From: Oscillibacter valericigenes
GTDB taxonomy: Bacteria; Bacillota; Clostridia; Oscillospirales; Oscillospiraceae
DNA: 64,000 bases
Reading direction: 5' to 3'
Assembly: GCF_016902445.1 (NCBI RefSeq)
Contig: NZ_JACSNX010000014.1
Coordinates: forward strand, 1-64,000
Below, piece by piece: positions 45,282-64,000 of the stretch. Position numbers and translations under genes: made by a program. Below the pieces are notes generated by a model that ran no database searches, was not told where the DNA came from, and was given only the letters and a program-made list of their open reading frames with translations. Position 1 is the stretch's first letter. Each line of letters starts with the position of its first letter.

Positions 45282-45452
45282 CGACTTTTGTCCGCTGTAA
45301 ATGTAGGTTTGGCGAACTTTTCAAGTTTTAATCGTTTTGATCAGACCATTCTGGTGCATTTCTTTTGATATTCAAAAATAAATTCAAAAATTTTCCAATT
45401 ATATCAAGACTGGGCGGAGGGTGTCCGCAGGAGGGCATCTTCTGTCCGCCGC

Positions 45453-57269: not shown

Positions 57270-58601
57270 TCAGCTCTGCTTCCTGGCGGCGGCAGAGCCG
57301 AGACGAAGCTCCATCCGATACTTGGCCACAGTGCGGCGGGCGATGTGGATGCCCTGCTCCTCCAGCAGCTCCGCCAGCTTCTGATCGCTGAAGGGGCGCT
57401 TGCGATCCTCCTGCCGGATCAGTTCCAGCAGCCGCAGCTTCACGGTCTGCTGGGAGGGGCCCTGTTCCCCCAGGGCCCGGCTGAAGAAATAGCGGAGGGG
57501 ATACGTCCCCTGGCGGCACTGGAGGTATTTTTCCCGGGTGGCCCGGGAGATGGTGGAGGGATGGAGCTGCAGCTGCTCTGCCAGAGTCACCATCGTCATG
57601 GGGGCCAGCTCCGTGGACTGACCGGAGAAGAAGGCGTACTGGGACTCCAGAATGGCCTCCGCGCACTGGCGGAGGGTGCTGCCTCGCCGCTCCAGACTGT
57701 TCAGCAGCCATTTGGCCTGCTGCATCTTCTGCTGGAGATAGGTGCGGGTCTCCGGCTCGTCGGACTCCTTCAGCAGCCGCACATAGTACTGGCTGATGGA
57801 CACCCGGGGCAGGTAGTAGTCGTTCAGGATCACCTGCAGCTTCCCGTCCAGCTCTGCGATGAACAGGTCCGGACGGATATAGAGGGTGGGTTCCGCCGGC
57901 TGGAAGGAACGGCCGGGATAGGGATCCAGGGCGGAGATCCGCTTCTCCGCCGCCCGGACCTCCTCCAGCGTGGTGTGAAGCTCACGGGCAATGAGGCCGT
58001 AGTGCTTCTTCCCCAGATCCGGCAGGAACCGGCGGACGATCTCCATGTCCAGGGGAGAGGCGCTGCCCTGCCGGGCCAGCTGCAGCAGCAGGCACTCAGA
58101 GAGGGAGCGGGCGCCCACGCCGGCGGGGTCCAGCCCCTGCACGGTCTCCAGCGCCTGCTGGATCAGCGCCTGGGGGATCTTCAGATCCACCACGCCGTCC
58201 AGATCCTCCTGGCTGAGGCGGCCGTCCTCATCCACCAGCTCCGCCAGATACCGGGACAGGGCCAGCAGCGGCTTGGGCAGCCGCAGCCGCTCCAGCTGGT
58301 CACAGAGGAAGGCGGAGAGGCTCTCGGTCTCCCGGTCTGTGACGCCCCGCTCCGGCATGGCGCCGTGGCCGTCTTCCGGCAGACCGCCGTTGATCCAGTG
58401 GACCTTCTGCCGCAGGGCCTCATAGGCGCTGTGGAGCTGGGAGAGGTCTGACTGCTCCACCAGGGGGTTTTCCTCGCTGACCTGATTCAGATAGTCCAGA
58501 AGCTCCTGGGAATTCATCTGGAGCACTTCCATGGACTGCAGGAGCTGGGGCGTCAGCTTCAGCTCCTGCCGCAGCTCCGTGCTCAGATGGATCAAACTCA
58601 T
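57270..58601 (-). CDS. rpoN: RNA polymerase sigma-54 factor
   Basis: 443 residues. Region I is Gln/Leu-rich (LRQELKLTPQLLQSMEVLQM) and binds activators. The core-binding domain follows at about 75-260 (LDPAGVGARSLSECLLLQLA). DNA-binding HTH at about 340-380 (LAEQLQLHPSTISRATREKY) and the C-terminal RpoN box ARRTVAKYRMEL. It directs polymerase to -24/-12 promoters and needs an ATP-driven activator. Here it is 16 bases downstream of such an activator gene. ATG 58601 has AAAGGAGGCG upstream. Confidence 0.96.
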   Translation of the reverse strand: MSLIHLSTELRQELKLTPQLLQSMEVLQMNSQELLDYLNQVSEENPLVEQSDLSQLHSAYEALRQKVHWINGGLPEDGHGAMPERGVTDRETESLSAFLCDQLERLRLPKPLLALSRYLAELVDEDGRLSQEDLDGVVDLKIPQALIQQALETVQGLDPAGVGARSLSECLLLQLARQGSASPLDMEIVRRFLPDLGKKHYGLIARELHTTLEEVRAAEKRISALDPYPGRSFQPAEPTLYIRPDLFIAELDGKLQVILNDYYLPRVSISQYYVRLLKESDEPETRTYLQQKMQQAKWLLNSLERRGSTLRQCAEAILESQYAFFSGQSTELAPMTMVTLAEQLQLHPSTISRATREKYLQCRQGTYPLRYFFSRALGEQGPSQQTVKLRLLELIRQEDRKRPFSDQKLAELLEEQGIHIARRTVAKYRMELRLGSAAARKQS

Positions 58602-58617: not shown

Positions 58618-60045
58618 TCATGCCCGGCTGCCGACGTATTTTGCGATTTTCCGGGCCGCTGTGGCCTGGGAGATCCCCAGGTCCTTGGCAACGGCCACAG
58701 TCGTGCCGCACCGCTGATAAGAGTCCCGGATGATCTGCGCTTCATAGGCGTCCATCCGCTCGGACAGAGTCCCGCCGGGCATCAGATGCTCCGTACCGGA
58801 GGACTTGGGCGCGGTGTATTCCAGCGGGAGAGAGGGGATGTCCAGAATGGGATCCTGGGCAGTGATCACTAGCCGCTCCATCAGATTTTCCAGCTGGCGG
58901 ACATTGCCGGGCCAGTCATACTGCTCCAGAAAGGCCAGGAACCGGGGACTGCAGGTGAGCGGCTTGTTGTATTCTCCGCAGAATCGGGCCAGGAACTGGT
59001 GGGCCATGGGAACGATGTCCTCTTTCCTCTGCCGCAGAGGGGGGATGTGGATGCGGATGACGTTCAGCCGGTAGAAGAGGTCCGACCGGAACAGCCCCCG
59101 CTGCACCGCCTCCTCCAGATTGCGGTTGGTGGCCACGATCAGCCGGAAGTCCAGCTCGATCTTCTGGGTGCCGGAGAGGCGCTCGATGGTCTTCTCCTGG
59201 ATCAGCTGCAGCAGCTTGGACTGGATGTGGGCCGGCAGCTCACCGATCTCGTCCAGGAACAGCGTGCCGTGGTTGGCCAGCTCGATCTTGCCGATCTTGC
59301 CGGAGGAGGATGCGCCCGTAAAGGCGCCCTTCTCGTAGCCGAACAGCTCCGACTCGATGAGGTTCTCATGGAGGACGGCACAGTTGACCTCGATGAAGGG
59401 GCCGTTGGCCCGGTTGCTCATCTTGTGGATGGCCTTGGCGATGGCGCTCTTGCCCACGCCGGTCTCTCCGGTGATGAGGATGTTGGCCCGGGTGTTGGCG
59501 GTGTTCTGCATCAGCGTCCACAGCCGCTGCATGGGGGCGCTTTTGAACAGGAGATTGGTGGAGGTGGCCCGGGTCCGCAGCTCGGCGATCTCCTGGGAGT
59601 AGTGCTGCAGGGAGTCCTGCATCCGGCGGTAGTTCCGCTGGATGGAGTTGATCTGCTCCATGGACACGGTGTTGAAGCAGACGGCGTATTTCAGGTCTCC
59701 GCTGGCGTCAAACAGAGGGATGCCCACGGTCATCACATTTTTGTGGGTGTGGTTGATGGTCTGGGTGGCACTGATCTTCTTCTTCTGCCGGATGACCTCT
59801 GCCGTGATGCAGGGGGTGAAGGTGCCGTCCGCCTCCAGGTCGAAGGCGGAACGGCCCACGATGGAGTCGTGGGCGAAGCCGAAGTTCTTCTCATAGGTCT
59901 CGCTGACCCGCAGGATGATGCCGTTGGCATCGGAGACCATCATGTCGTCTGCCAGCACCAGATTGTTTTCCGGACTCAGGATCTCCAGGAGCCCTTCAAG
60001 ATTGATCCCCTCATCATGAAGGGCGGAAAGGGATGAAAACGGCAT
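58618..60045 (-). CDS. Sigma-54-dependent activator with PAS, AAA+ and Fis-type HTH
   Basis: 475 residues. PAS sensor about 25-140 ([40 protein letters not shown]). AAA+ domain from about 165: Walker [17 protein letters not shown], sigma-54 contact loop GAFTGA intact in [13 protein letters not shown], Walker [12 protein letters not shown], and [16 protein letters not shown]-terminal [23 protein letters not shown]. It lacks a receiver domain, so it senses a small ligand or redox state rather than phosphorylation. Its own -10 (60104-60099) is overlapped by a candidate binding site. ATG 60045 follows GAGGAGGT. Cotranscribed with rpoN; divergent from the operon it probably drives. Confidence 0.95.
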
Positions 60046-60086
60046 CTGTGCAGACCTCCTCACCGGGCCGCCGGACCCGGAAATTC

Positions 60087-60102
60087 TATTCAAAAGTGAG
60101 TA
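60087..60102. promoter_or_regulatory. Candidate activator site A
   Basis: TATTCA-AAAG-TGAGTA, one mismatch to a perfect dyad. Overlaps the -10 of the activator gene; 21 bases (two helical turns) from site B. Confidence 0.75.
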
Positions 60103-60104
60103 TA
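60099..60104 (-). promoter_or_regulatory. -10 element of the activator-rpoN operon
   Basis: TATACT on the minus strand; -35 weak. It lies between and partly under sites A and B, implying autorepression. Confidence 0.6.
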
Positions 60105-60107
60105 GCA

Positions 60108-60123
60108 TATTCAAAAGTGAATA
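60108..60123. promoter_or_regulatory. Candidate activator site B
   Basis: TATTCA-AAAG-TGAATA, a perfect dyad, in the spacer/-35 region of the activator's own promoter. Confidence 0.8.
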
Positions 60124-60234
60124 GGAAGAGGAAATGGCATTTCTGAAGCCGTGAAAACAGACGAAATTTTTGGGGTTTTCTAGCGAATTTCCACAAGAAA
60201 TGAAAGTGCCCGCGGCAGAATACGACAAATCGCC

Positions 60235-60250
60235 TATTCATATTTGAATA
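60235..60250. promoter_or_regulatory. Candidate activator site C (enhancer)
   Basis: TATTCA-TATT-TGAATA, a perfect dyad, 115 bases upstream of the -24 element: the normal distance for a sigma-54 enhancer. Confidence 0.8.
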
Positions 60251-60364
60251 ACTCCGCCCGGAAAGGTGCGTCAGGTCCGGAAATTTCCAGCGTTTTGGCG
60301 GAAAGATTTTAGCATCCTGTACAAAAAAGCGGGGCGGAAACTGAGAGAATTGCCTCTGGAAAGG

Positions 60365-60380
60365 TGGCATATTTTTTGCT
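60365..60380 (+). promoter_or_regulatory. Sigma-54 (-24/-12) promoter of the crotonase operon
   Basis: TGGCATATTTTTTGCT: TGGCA and TTGCT with the GG-to-GC distance exactly that of the consensus (TGGCAC-N5-TTGCW). Start of transcription expected near 60391. Confidence 0.92.
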
Positions 60381-60437
60381 ATAAATAGAGTGTTGAATGA
60401 TCTCGCTTCAACGATTTTTATCAGGGAGGTTTTTGAG

Positions 60438-61238
60438 ATGTATCAGACCATTCGATATGAAAAGCAGGACGGCATCGCGATCGTTACCATCAATCGCCCG
60501 GAGGCGCTGAACGCGCTGAATTCCACTGTGATCTCCGAGCTGGAGCAGGTGATCGGCGAGGTGGAGAAGGATCAGGAGCTGGGCGCCATGATCCTCACCG
60601 GCGAGGGCCGCTCTTTCGTGGCCGGCGCCGACATCGGCGAGCAGTACGGCCTGGATGTGGCTGCCGGCCGCAAGTGGGGCCAGCGGGGCAGCGCTCTGAT
60701 GCGCCGCATCGAAAAGCTGGAGATCCCCACCATCGCTGCAGTGAACGGCTTTGCCCTGGGCGGCGGCTGCGAGTTGGCCATGTCCTGCGACATCATTCTG
60801 GCCGCCGGCCCCAATGCTGAGGGCAAGGGCGGCGCCAAGTTCGGCCAGCCTGAGGTGGGCCTGGGCATCACCCCCGGCTTCTCCGGCACCCAGCGTCTTC
60901 CCCGCCGGGTGGGCATCGCCAAGGCCAAGGAGCTGATCTTCTCCGGCAAGACCATCGGCGCCCAGGAGGCCAAGGAGATCGGCCTGGTGAACGCTGTGTA
61001 CGCTCCGGAGGAGCTGATGAACGGCGCGGTCGCCATGGCAAAGTCCTTCATGGTCAACGCCCCCATCGCCGTGAAGTACGCCAAGGCCTGCATCGACCGC
61101 GGCATGCAGATGGACATTGACGACGGCATCGCCGTGGAGAACGAGCTGTTCGCCATGTGCTTTGCCACCGAGGACCAGAAGGAGGGCATGGGCGCCTTCC
61201 TGGAGAAGCGCAAGGAGAAGCACTTCCAGAACAAGTAA
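60438..61238 (+). CDS. Crotonase / enoyl-CoA hydratase
   Basis: 266 residues. Oxyanion-hole segments GRSFVAGADIGEQYG and VNGFALGGGCELAMSCDI, with the first catalytic Glu in GGCELAM and the second in FGQPEVGLGITPGFSGTQRL. Hydrates crotonyl-CoA to 3-hydroxybutyryl-CoA, or the reverse. In 4-hydroxybutyrate fermentation part of the crotonyl-CoA is oxidised through this step to acetyl-CoA while the rest is reduced to butyryl-CoA. First gene behind the sigma-54 promoter; AGGGAGGT before ATG 60438. Confidence 0.93.
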   Translation: MYQTIRYEKQDGIAIVTINRPEALNALNSTVISELEQVIGEVEKDQELGAMILTGEGRSFVAGADIGEQYGLDVAAGRKWGQRGSALMRRIEKLEIPTIAAVNGFALGGGCELAMSCDIILAAGPNAEGKGGAKFGQPEVGLGITPGFSGTQRLPRRVGIAKAKELIFSGKTIGAQEAKEIGLVNAVYAPEELMNGAVAMAKSFMVNAPIAVKYAKACIDRGMQMDIDDGIAVENELFAMCFATEDQKEGMGAFLEKRKEKHFQNK

Positions 61239-61299
61239 GCACCTACCGGCGAGACGCCATCCACTTTATTACATTTGATAAAAAAGAGGGAAGTCAGGC

Positions 61300-62856
61300 A
61301 TGAAAAAAGTTCGCGTGCTTACCGCTGAAGAGGCGGCGCTGCTGGTGAACGACGGCGACACCATCGCCACCGGCGGATTTGTCAGCTGCGCCTGCCCGGA
61401 GGCGCTGTCCAAGGCACTGGAAAAGCGGTTTCTGGAGACCGGCCATCCCAAGGATCTGACGCTGTTCTTCGCGGCCGGCCAGGGCCACCGGGATGGCACC
61501 GGCGGCGACCACTACGGCCACGAGGGAATGGTGAAGCGGGTCATCGGCGGCCACTGGGACCGGGCCCCCAAGCTGGGCGACCTGGCCCTGGCCAACAAGA
61601 TCGAGGCGTACAACCTGCCCCAGGGCGTCATCTCCCACATGTACCGGGACATCGCCGCCCACAACATCGGCACCATCACCACCGTGGGCCTGTACACCTT
61701 TGCCGACCCCCGCAACGGCGGCGGCAAGCTGAACGACTGCACCACGGAGGACCTGGTGAAGGTCATCAACATCGAGGGCAAGGAGCTGCTGCTGTACAAG
61801 GGATTCCCCATCAACGTGGTGTTCCTGCGGGCCAGCTACGCCGATGAGTACGGCAACTGCACCGTCCACCGGGAGATCGGCCCCATCGACGTCACCGCCA
61901 TGGCCCAGGCCTGCAAGAACTCCGGCGGCAAGGTCATCGTGCAGGTGGAAAAAATTGTGCAGGGCGGCAGTCTGGATCCGAAACTGGTGGCAATTCCCGG
62001 TATCTATGTGGACTCCATTGTGGTAGGATCCATTGAGGACAACGAGCAGTGCCTGGGCATGCCGTATGACGGCAGCCTGACCGGCGAGTTCCGCATCCCT
62101 GTGGACGCCATCCCGCCCATTCCCCTGGACGCCAAGAAGATCATCGCCCGCCGGGCGGCCATGGAGCTGCCGGAGAACGCCATCGTGAACCTGGGCACCG
62201 GCGCCCCGGAAAAAATCGCCAATGTGGCGGCGGAGGAGGGCATCTCCGACAAGATGACCCTGACCGTGGAGGCCGGCTCCATCGCCGGCGTGCCCATGGG
62301 CGGCACCCAGTTCGGCGCCGCGGCCAACTCCATGGCCATCCTGCCCCACAACGTCCAGTTCGACTTCTATCAGGGCGGCGGCCTGGATGTGGCCTTCCTG
62401 GGCCTGGCGGAGACGGCCCCCAACGGCGACCTGAACGTGTCCAAGTTCGGTACCCGCCTGGCCGGCGCCGGCGGCTTCATCGACATCACCCAGAACGCCA
62501 AGAAGGTGGTCTACTGCGGCACCTTCACCGCCAAGGGCCTGAAGACCGAGTGCCGGGACGGCAAGCTGGTCATCACCCAGGAGGGCGCCAAGAAGAAGTT
62601 CGTCAACCAGGTGGAGCACATCACCTTCTCCGGCAAGTACGCCGTGCAGGTGAAGCAGCCGGTCCTGTACATCACCGAGCGGGCCGTGTTCGAACTGCGG
62701 CCCGAGGGCGTGACCCTCATCGAAATCGCCCCCGGCATCGACCTCCAGACCCAGGTGCTGGATCAGATGGAGTTCATGCCGAAGATCGCCGAGGACCTGA
62801 AGCTCATGGACGAGCGCATCTTCAAGGATGAGCTGATGGGATTGGCGGAAGACTAA
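61300..62856 (+). CDS. Fused alpha/beta acyl-CoA:carboxylate CoA-transferase
   Basis: 518 residues. Alpha half (LTAEEAALLVNDGDTIATGG; FFAAGQGHRDGTGGDHYGHE) and beta half (AIVNLGTGAPEKIANVAAEE) in one chain, as in propionate/acetate CoA-transferases (Pct, YdiF). The catalytic Glu is in TLTVEAGSIAGVPMGG. This is a different family from the 430-residue Cat2/AbfT enzymes that normally activate 4-hydroxybutyrate. From its operon it probably moves CoA between acetyl- or butyryl-CoA and 4-hydroxybutyrate, by inference. ATG 61300 lies 61 bases after the crotonase stop. Confidence 0.92.
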   Translation: MKKVRVLTAEEAALLVNDGDTIATGGFVSCACPEALSKALEKRFLETGHPKDLTLFFAAGQGHRDGTGGDHYGHEGMVKRVIGGHWDRAPKLGDLALANKIEAYNLPQGVISHMYRDIAAHNIGTITTVGLYTFADPRNGGGKLNDCTTEDLVKVINIEGKELLLYKGFPINVVFLRASYADEYGNCTVHREIGPIDVTAMAQACKNSGGKVIVQVEKIVQGGSLDPKLVAIPGIYVDSIVVGSIEDNEQCLGMPYDGSLTGEFRIPVDAIPPIPLDAKKIIARRAAMELPENAIVNLGTGAPEKIANVAAEEGISDKMTLTVEAGSIAGVPMGGTQFGAAANSMAILPHNVQFDFYQGGGLDVAFLGLAETAPNGDLNVSKFGTRLAGAGGFIDITQNAKKVVYCGTFTAKGLKTECRDGKLVITQEGAKKKFVNQVEHITFSGKYAVQVKQPVLYITERAVFELRPEGVTLIEIAPGIDLQTQVLDQMEFMPKIAEDLKLMDERIFKDELMGLAED

Positions 62857-62879
62857 GGGATTTTCACCGTTGCGGCGAT

Positions 62880-63049
62880 GCGATTTCCGGCCCTGACCGG
62901 GCCGCAAATCGCGCCGCTGCCTCGAAACCGGCTCGCTTGCTCCGCCGCTGGCGGCGCTTCGCCGGTTTCCCCTCTCCCTCGCACGGCGAGGGAGCCGCGC
63001 CCAATGGCACGGGCAGAAGTGTTCCGGGCAGGCGGAGCCCGCCCGGAAC
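62880..63049. repeat. Four consecutive perfect hairpins between CoA-transferase and abfD
   Basis: GCGATTT/AAATCGC with inner GGCCC/GGGCC (62880-62912); GAAACCGGC/GCCGGTTTC with an inner CCGCC/GGCGG (62924-62969); CTCCCTCGC-ACG-GCGAGGGAG (62974-62994); GTTCCGGGC/GCCCGGAAC (63021-63049). None is followed by a T tract. They look like REP-type palindromes or RNA processing/stability elements inside the operon. No ORF is supported in this 236-base gap. Confidence 0.8.
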
Positions 63050-63092
63050 GGATTGAAAATAGACCCCCATTTTTACGAGGAGGAAAAAAGAA

Positions 63093-64000
63093 ATGGCATT
63101 GATGACCCCCCAAGAGTATGTTGAGAGCCTGCGGAAGCTGAACACCCGGGTGTACATGTTCGGGGAGAAGATCGACAACTGGGTGGATCACCCCATGATC
63201 CGCCCCTCCATCAACTGCGTGGCCATGACCTACGCCCTGGCCCAGGATCCCCAGTATGCGGACCTGATGACGGTGAAGTCCAGCCTGACGGGCCACACCA
63301 TCAACCGCTTCACCCACCTGCATCAGTCCACCGAGGATCTGATCAACAAGGTGAAGATGCAGCGTCTGCTGGGCCAGAAGACCGCTTCCTGCTTCCAGCG
63401 CTGCGTGGGCATGGACGCCTTCAACGCCGTGTTCTCCACCACCTATGAGATCGACGAGAAGTACGGCACCCACTACCACGAGAACTTCAAGAAGTTCCTG
63501 ACCTTCGTGCAGGATAACGACCTGACCGTGGACGGCGCCATGACCGACCCCAAGGGCGACCGGTCCAAGGCCCCCAGCCAGCAGGCTGACCCGGACATGT
63601 ACGTCCACGTGGTGGAGCGCCGCCCGGACGGCATCGTGGTCTGCGGTGCCAAGTGCCACCAGACCGGCTCCATCAACTCCCACTGGCACATCTTCATGCC
63701 CACCATCTCCATGGGCGAGGCGGACAAGGACTGGGCAGTTTCCTTCGCCTGCCCCACCGACGCCGAGGGCATGTACATGATCTACGGCCGTCAGTCCTGC
63801 GACACCCGGAAGCTGGAGGAGGACGCCTCCATCGACGTGGGCAATGCCAAGTTCGGCGGCCAGGAGGCCCTGGTGGTCCTGGACCACGTGTTCATCCCCA
63901 ACGAGTACATCTTCCTCAACGGCGAGTATGAGTTCGCCGGCATGATGGTGGAGCGGTTCGCCGGCTATCACCGCCAGTCCTACGGCGGCTGCAAGGTGGG
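63093..64000 (+). CDS. abfD: 4-hydroxybutyryl-CoA dehydratase / vinylacetyl-CoA isomerase (3' end outside window)
   Basis: The first 302 residues are visible. Opening TPQEYVESLRKLNTRVYMFG and WVDHPMIRPSINCVAMTYAL are typical. The four ligands of the [4Fe-4S] cluster known in Clostridium aminobutyricum (Cys99, Cys103, His292, Cys299) all align with a constant one-residue offset: Cys100 and Cys104 in TASCFQRCVG, His293 in AGYHRQSYGG and Cys300 in GGCKVG. FAD-binding parts such as KCHQTGSINSHWH are present. The enzyme dehydrates 4-hydroxybutyryl-CoA to crotonyl-CoA by a radical route and is oxygen-sensitive. ACGAGGAGG precedes ATG 63093. The gene runs off the right edge. Confidence 0.97.
   Translation, partial: MALMTPQEYVESLRKLNTRVYMFGEKIDNWVDHPMIRPSINCVAMTYALAQDPQYADLMTVKSSLTGHTINRFTHLHQSTEDLINKVKMQRLLGQKTASCFQRCVGMDAFNAVFSTTYEIDEKYGTHYHENFKKFLTFVQDNDLTVDGAMTDPKGDRSKAPSQQADPDMYVHVVERRPDGIVVCGAKCHQTGSINSHWHIFMPTISMGEADKDWAVSFACPTDAEGMYMIYGRQSCDTRKLEEDASIDVGNAKFGGQEALVVLDHVFIPNEYIFLNGEYEFAGMMVERFAGYHRQSYGGCKV

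Follow-up and report, generated by a model that had tools for sequence, protein, structure and literature searches.

A predicted sigma-54 circuit at the divergent butyrate operon of Oscillibacter, and its apparent rewiring in relatives without a detected rpoN

Sigma-54 control of genes for 4-hydroxybutyryl-coenzyme A (CoA) dehydratase (abfD) has been predicted in Clostridia before. In Nie et al. 2019, the enhancer-binding protein (EBP) XanR is predicted for the abfD-nifU-hyp-ach-golB operon of Clostridium, which has a -24/-12 promoter before it, and CrbR, AhcR, XcgR and YctR are EBPs predicted for butyrate genes, with CrbR acting on crt-hbd-thl (PMC6615313); a 2025 survey finds COG2368, which includes 4-hydroxybutyryl-CoA dehydratase, to be sigma-54-regulated primarily in Clostridia (PMC12316311). 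A neighbouring pathway, that of γ-aminobutyrate (GABA) and succinic semialdehyde, is controlled in Bacillus thuringiensis from a sigma-54 promoter by GabR, an EBP of PAS-AAA+-helix-turn-helix (HTH) architecture whose footprint covers a repeat region (PMC4279683). Here we describe a locus near the end of a 64,000-nucleotide stretch of Oscillibacter valericigenes DNA (contig NZ_JACSNX010000014.1, positions 1 to 64,000; hereafter the window), in which the gene of an EBP of the same architecture, followed by the sigma-54 gene rpoN, lies divergent from a crt-transferase-abfD-bcd-etfB operon, a target different from that of XanR. We propose, at a probability of about 85%, that this EBP drives the butyrate operon through three TATTCA-N4-TGAATA dyads and a -24/-12 promoter and that, together with rpoN, it forms one circuit. 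The original prediction, made from the window sequence alone, knew of no described regulator of abfD operons of this design; XanR, and the EBP genes that stand beside abfD elsewhere in the class (see below), overturn that statement, and the window circuit is a variant on the control already predicted in 2019 with another EBP. No paper on control of the Oscillibacter butyrate operon was found in the open-licence literature, and none was recognised, in the portions of that literature available, on the window EBP or on a coupled loss of the kind described below.

The window EBP has the features of sigma-54 EBPs of the NtrC/NifA superfamily, namely an AAA+ domain (PF00158, 1.4e-66, with AAA_lid_14) in which the alignment places Walker A and DE motifs, a GAFTGA motif that is intact, as had been claimed, and starts at residue 240, and a Fis-type HTH at the C-terminus (HTH_50, 1.1e-7). 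The PAS domain is a weak match (PAS_9, 2.9e-5, 24.7 bits vs the Pfam cut-off of 27). Named relatives encode EBPs of 95% (Candidatus Oscillibacter excrementigallinarum), 84% (a Dysosmobacter sp. metagenome-assembled genome) and 79% identity (Oscillibacter sp. 1-3). The protein falls short of the PrdR equivalog (NF041552), scoring 364.8 bits against a curated cut-off of 795, and an AlphaFold model of the protein was set aside (mean predicted local distance difference test score 52.9, predicted template modelling score 0.27).

The sites proposed for this EBP lie in the gap between it and crt (Table 1). All three dyads of the original prediction are there, one of them with a single mismatch, and its spacings hold: 114 bases separate dyad 3, which it had placed at enhancer distance, from the promoter box, and dyad 2 begins 21 bases after the start of dyad 1. 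At up to two mismatches the window contains four dyad matches where 0.33 are expected, a number reached in 0 of 100 shuffles; the fourth lies at 45369 and departs from the consensus at two positions. At up to one mismatch the 2.84-Mb genome holds the three gap dyads and one other, at C18:26936, which we take to be chance, and a wider dyad regulon in this genome was rejected. The search of related genomes that the original prediction had proposed covered 48 genomes of the Genome Taxonomy Database (GTDB) genus, which together gave 48 orthologues of the EBP at 63-100% identity, the window included. The EBP gene is divergent from crt or abfD in 36 of these loci, and the triplet is present in 36/36 (up to two mismatches per dyad). 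One further locus, L068, has the triplet on a contig that ends in the gap before the operon; with it the adjacent loci number 37, the strict count being 36, while L067, whose contig stops 59 bases past the EBP gene, and L060, whose EBP gene is truncated by a contig end, stand outside the 37. Dyads 1 and 2 start 21 bp apart in all adjacent loci, and dyad 3 follows dyad 2 at 127-131 bp in most of them, the exceptions being spacings of 119, 120 and, in three loci, 137 bp. A chance origin of the dyads is thus ruled out by the window shuffles, by their rarity in the genome and by conservation. The predicted -24/-12 promoter, TGGCATATTTTTTGCT, is the sole exact match to its pattern in the window, and TGG[CT]A-N6-TTGC[AT] is present in 46 of 49 triplet-bearing operons, which bears out the promoter claimed before the divergent operon.

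Sigma-54 EBPs are expected to have upstream sites 100-250 bp from their promoter, and in the 46 loci with a box dyad 3 starts 127-158 bp before it. Start to start, the distances are 127-131, 138-141, 148-151 or 158 bp, with none between; these classes, which were defined after the data were seen, are one helical turn apart (resultant length R=0.84 at 10.3 bp), and parsimony on the EBP tree, on which 42 of the 46 loci could be placed, counts at least 11 changes of class. Such phased distances are expected if the DNA loops with the bound protein on a single helical face. The tree omits L060 and L063 (split EBP frame). In L063 (G038:C1:1793282-1794696), from a single-contig 3.58-Mb relative, the EBP is spread over two reading frames by a frameshift or a sequencing error; the dyads, box and rpoN are present despite this.

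Loci in which EBP and operon are physically separated bear on which of the two the dyads belong to. In 10 genomes the EBP gene lies elsewhere and no dyads were found upstream of it at up to three mismatches (600 bases scanned; ~255 in L054). The triplet and a -24/-12 box nonetheless precede crt in 12 genomes where no EBP gene adjoins the operon (those 10, G042 and G002), and the dyads thus follow the operon, not the EBP. Further, an abfD match occurs in 55 of the 86 genomes of the genus, and for 12 of the 55 the matches listed include no EBP orthologue. G042 and G002 among these 12 carry the triplet and G035 (a 70% abfD match) was left out; in the nine examined, with the upstream region visible in eight and cut in L304, there is no dyad near abfD at up to two mismatches and no -24/-12 match in the promoter region. 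L300 has TGGCA-N6-TTGCG ~1.4 kb upstream of crt, and abfD has no crt before it in L301, L305 and L306. For G078, one of six abfD copies was taken. The claim of the original prediction that the activator switches the operon on is therefore favoured by the fixed layout, by the phasing, by sites that follow the operon and by their absence from the nine genomes.

Some observations count against the proposed circuit. G042 (93% complete) and G002 (56%) have the triplet, and neither an EBP orthologue nor rpoN was found in them; assembly gaps are the likely, if unproven, cause. The -24/-12 pattern with one mismatch is no rarer in the window than chance (5 vs 7.4 expected), so that the support for the box comes from its conservation. 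The loci are related, the counts are not independent trials and kinship inflates all of them. In addition, drafts dominate the sample, in which assembly gaps can mimic absence.

The mechanism that we propose is as follows. The EBP and rpoN genes would form one probable transcription unit that controls the divergent crt, CoA-transferase, abfD, bcd and etfB genes and onwards. The EBP would bind all three dyads, as their conservation and co-occurrence suggest, with ~12 helical turns between the -24 box and dyad 3 on its upstream side, and another ~12 turns from there to the pair of dyads 1 and 2. Bound EBP would loop to sigma-54 polymerase at the -24/-12 promoter and open it through the GAFTGA loop, a mechanism presumed from the family for a layout that is observed. 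The original prediction had the PAS domain sense a pathway ligand or redox state; that it might respond to a metabolite near crotonyl-CoA or 4-hydroxybutyrate is a guess.

The box appears to be embedded in a second promoter pattern. Position counts around it give TTGaAA upstream and TATAAT from the last T of TTGCT, and in many relatives TTGaAA-N18-TATAAT overlaps the -24/-12 box. The best sigma-70 score averages 9.28/12 over the 46 operon promoters, 34 of which reach 9, vs 7.25 (3 reaching 9) over 20 other sigma-54-like sites of the genus and 6.19 with shuffled flanks; the 20 control sites remain from 22 after two L065 rows (minus strand) were dropped as likely coding, not all of them are shown promoters, and kinship inflates the skeleton scores. 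Sigma-70-like sites scoring 10-11/12 lie within 300 bases of crt in five loci without an EBP (L299, L300, L302, L303 and L307), and in the EBP-less abfD-first loci (L301, L305 and L306) the score is 9 at most; that they and the sigma-54 loci are in a common register is a visual assessment.

The same region has changed in three relatives, G044 (L059), G069 (L061) and G068 (L062), in which no rpoN was found and no EBP above 33 bits other than the orthologue of the window EBP. GAFTGA is intact in 45 of the 48 orthologues, window included, and is broken in these three, each time differently (KDSSTG, two residues short; an eight-residue deletion in L061; a four-residue deletion). Their gaps contain no -24/-12 match at up to one mismatch, L062 having one two-mismatch site, and the remaining 34 of the 37 adjacent loci hold both GAFTGA and the box; joint loss in the same three loci has p = 1.3e-4 if loci are assumed independent, which they are not. 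Parsimony on the EBP tree gives three losses, with L061 sister to an intact EBP (100/86) and L059 within a clade with intact EBPs (96/82); a single clade of the three is rejected weakly, with long branches (p-AU 0.041 in the approximately unbiased test). Because the EBP and its dyads are kept, GAFTGA and the box are lost and a sigma-70-like promoter is in place (TTGCAA-18-TATAAA, TTGAAA-17-TAATAT and TTGTCA-18-TATAAT), we infer that the EBP probably acts in these lineages as a repressor or activator of sigma-70 type.

It is unlikely, though far from negligible, that the three GAFTGA-less EBPs are instead decaying genes without any sigma-70 role. They sit on longer branches, and the ratios of nonsynonymous to synonymous substitution rates (dN/dS) of L059 and L061 vs intact sisters, 0.10-0.17, are at or above those of five intact pairs (0.03-0.11); dS of L062 is saturated. 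Against decay, their reading frames are open, Walker A, DE, HTH and all three dyads are kept, and the intact divergent pair of L064 and the window EBP has a dN/dS of 0.23. Values well below 1 indicate that the GAFTGA-less genes are under purifying selection, perhaps relaxed.

From these patterns we tentatively suggest, with slightly less than even confidence, that the operon promoter is nested and sigma-exchangeable. The -24/-12 elements would lie within a sigma-70 skeleton of one register (TTGAAA-N18-TATAAT), the GC of the -12 element beside an extended -10; where rpoN is present, a silent sigma-54 polymerase may both occlude the sigma-70 promoter and place the operon under the EBP, which would throttle its own supply and that of sigma-54; three lineages would separately have lost rpoN, GAFTGA and box together, the EBP on the same sites having turned sigma-70 regulator, and the five EBP-less loci would have the skeleton alone. 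Further facts count against the proposed circuit: the window -35 is weak (TGGAAA; TGGAAA-17-TATAAA scores 9), G032 (77% complete) keeps GAFTGA and the -24/-12 box with no rpoN found beside the EBP gene or elsewhere, and the GAFTGA-less genomes are drafts (G044 96% complete, G068 88% in ~640 contigs, G069 71%).

Two described cases resemble this loss. In NtrC of Caulobacter and Rhodobacter the L1 loop is deleted and the protein acts on sigma-70 promoters, the Caulobacter deletion comprising eight residues, the number missing in L061 (PMC10274813); here, in contrast, rpoN was not found, the target -24/-12 promoter is broken too, and intact sister lineages exist. At Neisseria pilE transcription is independent of sigma-54 and rpoN is defective, but the -24/-12 sequence is conserved (PMC6755734), whereas here the box is lost and the activator sites stay.

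Beside the EBP gene, dyad 1 always carries a defect: of the 37 adjacent loci, 33 have TGAGTA as its right half and four have TGATTA. Neither form is seen in any of the 12 non-adjacent operons, and on the EBP strand the defect reads as an extended -10 (TG-N-TATACT or TG-N-TATAAT) in 37/37. The simplest reading is that one stretch doubles as an EBP site and as the EBP-rpoN promoter. As dyads 1 and 2 straddle the extended -10 of what would be a sigma-70-type promoter, bound EBP should limit the synthesis of both the EBP and sigma-54, and the presence of the overlap in all adjacent and no non-adjacent loci supports such self-limitation. This differs from GabR, which does not bind its own promoter and whose cluster has gabT and gabRD as its units (PMC4279683); the two dyads here are predicted sites that overlap the EBP-rpoN promoter. 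One could go further and suppose that dyads 1 and 2 serve autorepression only and that dyad 3 is the sole enhancer, which we consider improbable: they bracket the extended -10 in every adjacent locus, but the pair is also kept, at its 21-bp spacing, before the 12 operons that have neither an adjacent EBP gene nor that -10, and the 10 EBP genes lying elsewhere have no dyads. The dyads as pure autorepressor sites are thus rejected as the whole story. The self-repression of the original prediction survives in part, as one probable function of dyads 1 and 2, which, because they persist at operons without an adjacent EBP gene, are part of the operon enhancer as well.

Another reading would make the window EBP an orthologue of XanR (on abfD) or CrbR (on crt-hbd-thl), both reconstructed for Clostridiales before. 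Their targets are of the same kind (PMC6615313, Table 1), and in 14 other Clostridia genomes an EBP gene adjoins abfD in 10 of 17 abfD loci, with a -24/-12 match between them in 9/10. However, eight of these abfD-linked EBPs, taken as stand-ins for XanR, fall in a clade apart from the window EBP on a quick tree, and the abfD-linked EBPs are 33-39% identical to it; orthology to them is not supported there, and we regard this reading as very unlikely. Since these EBPs group apart, abfD seems to be under sigma-54 control through EBPs that are not orthologous to one another. In L287 (G349), from a distant Clostridia genome, an EBP gene of another clade, rpoN and abfD stand in a row on one strand. 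One abfD locus, L282 (G267), has two EBPs, one of the abfD-linked clade and one grouping with the window EBP (41% identity), with a one-mismatch dyad 7 kb from the latter.

We give least credence of all to another regulator binding the dyads in place of the EBP, for although operators often take the form of short AT-rich dyads and G042 and G002 hold the triplet without a detected EBP orthologue, the dyads are missing near abfD in the nine EBP-less genomes (among the eight visible upstream regions), dyad 3 is helically phased to the -24 box, and half-sites differ at a paralogue whose recognition helix is altered. This paralogue, 53% identical to the EBP and found in L152 (G041) and L153 (G063), has TATGCA/TGCATA-like dyads ~20 bp apart, imperfect in L152, and an exact -24/-12 box; it precedes a probable ATP-binding cassette (ABC)-type solute-binding protein gene, with a CoA-transferase relative ~5.5 kb downstream.

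The genes of the locus are listed in Table 1. A GGAGG ribosome site lies upstream of the EBP gene, and rpoN begins 16 bases past the EBP stop codon on the same strand. It adjoins the EBP gene in 41 of 48 loci and is missing there in L052, L059, L061, L062, L064 and L087, while L060 is truncated. Across the genus, no more than one strong rpoN match was found per genome. In the window genome this rpoN is the sole strong sigma-54 match and six further EBPs exceed 200 bits, all of which would depend on it.

On the operon side, crt matches PRK05809 at 1.7e-105 (352 bits, under the cut-off of 394), and AbfD is a full-length match (residues 3-490) to the solved enzyme 1u8v. The CoA-transferase has a single solved relative at E of 1e-20 or below, YdiF (2ahu, 3.9e-135), and scores 23.3 bits with PF02550, under the cut-off of 24. 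The 4-hydroxybutyrate CoA-transferases AbfT and Cat2 are usually of PF02550 type. Because the operon enzyme is of PF01144 type, the label 4-hydroxybutyrate CoA-transferase is unproven. Past the window the contig carries the rest of abfD, then bcd and etfB, until its end, and the operon thus runs through crotonyl-CoA to butyryl-CoA. A pathway from 4-hydroxybutyrate to crotonyl-CoA, as originally predicted, is too narrow a description, also in view of L195 (Candidatus Flavonifractor intestinipullorum), where a 69% EBP orthologue stands before crt-bcd-etfB with no abfD in the 15-kb locus. No rpoN was found within that locus either. L195 has three decayed dyads (1, 2 and 1 mismatches), the TGAGTA defect of dyad 1 being kept, and TGGCAC-N5-TTGCG. 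A GC-rich segment (62907-63040) that separates abfD from the CoA-transferase gene was considered as a dispersed repeat and rejected, its core being single copy in the window genome.

Table 1. Genes, dyads and predicted promoter elements of the locus in window coordinates
Feature	Position	Strand	Basis or description
rpoN (sigma-54)	57270..58601	-	TIGR02395 5.4e-114; Sigma54_AID/CBD/DBD
PAS-AAA+-HTH sigma-54 EBP, 475 aa	58618..60045	-	Pfam, alignment
Dyad 1	60087..60102		TATTCA-N4-TGAGTA (one mismatch); right half overlaps EBP-rpoN extended -10
Extended -10 of predicted EBP-rpoN promoter	60099..60107	-	TGCTATACT; between and partly under dyads 1 and 2
Dyad 2	60108..60123		TATTCA-N4-TGAATA
Dyad 3	60235..60250		TATTCA-N4-TGAATA; predicted proximal enhancer of operon
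Overlapping sigma-70-like -35/-10	60357..60385	+	TGGAAA-N17-TATAAA, 9/12 matches
Predicted -24/-12 sigma-54 promoter	60365..60380	+	TGGCATATTTTTTGCT
crt, short-chain enoyl-CoA hydratase (crotonase)	60438..61238	+	PF00378 6e-67
CoA-transferase, PF01144/YdiF type	61300..62856	+	PF01144 2.1e-30
abfD, 4-hydroxybutyryl-CoA dehydratase	63093..64000, continues on contig beyond window	+	1u8v 2.1e-276

Oscillibacter was a butyrate-pathway taxon in >90% of human samples in one survey (PMC5715108). The locus offers a compact, testable sigma-54 circuit in which activator and sigma factor probably share one transcription unit, and because of this placement a pathway signal might set the sigma-54 supply for the six other EBPs. 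Comparison of the loci suggests that in a few relatives sigma-54 has been lost and the switch has come to work with the housekeeping polymerase. Intact versions, versions with activator and operon apart and versions lacking sigma-54 form a natural series in which to study how an enhancer-dependent promoter may be handed over to that polymerase.

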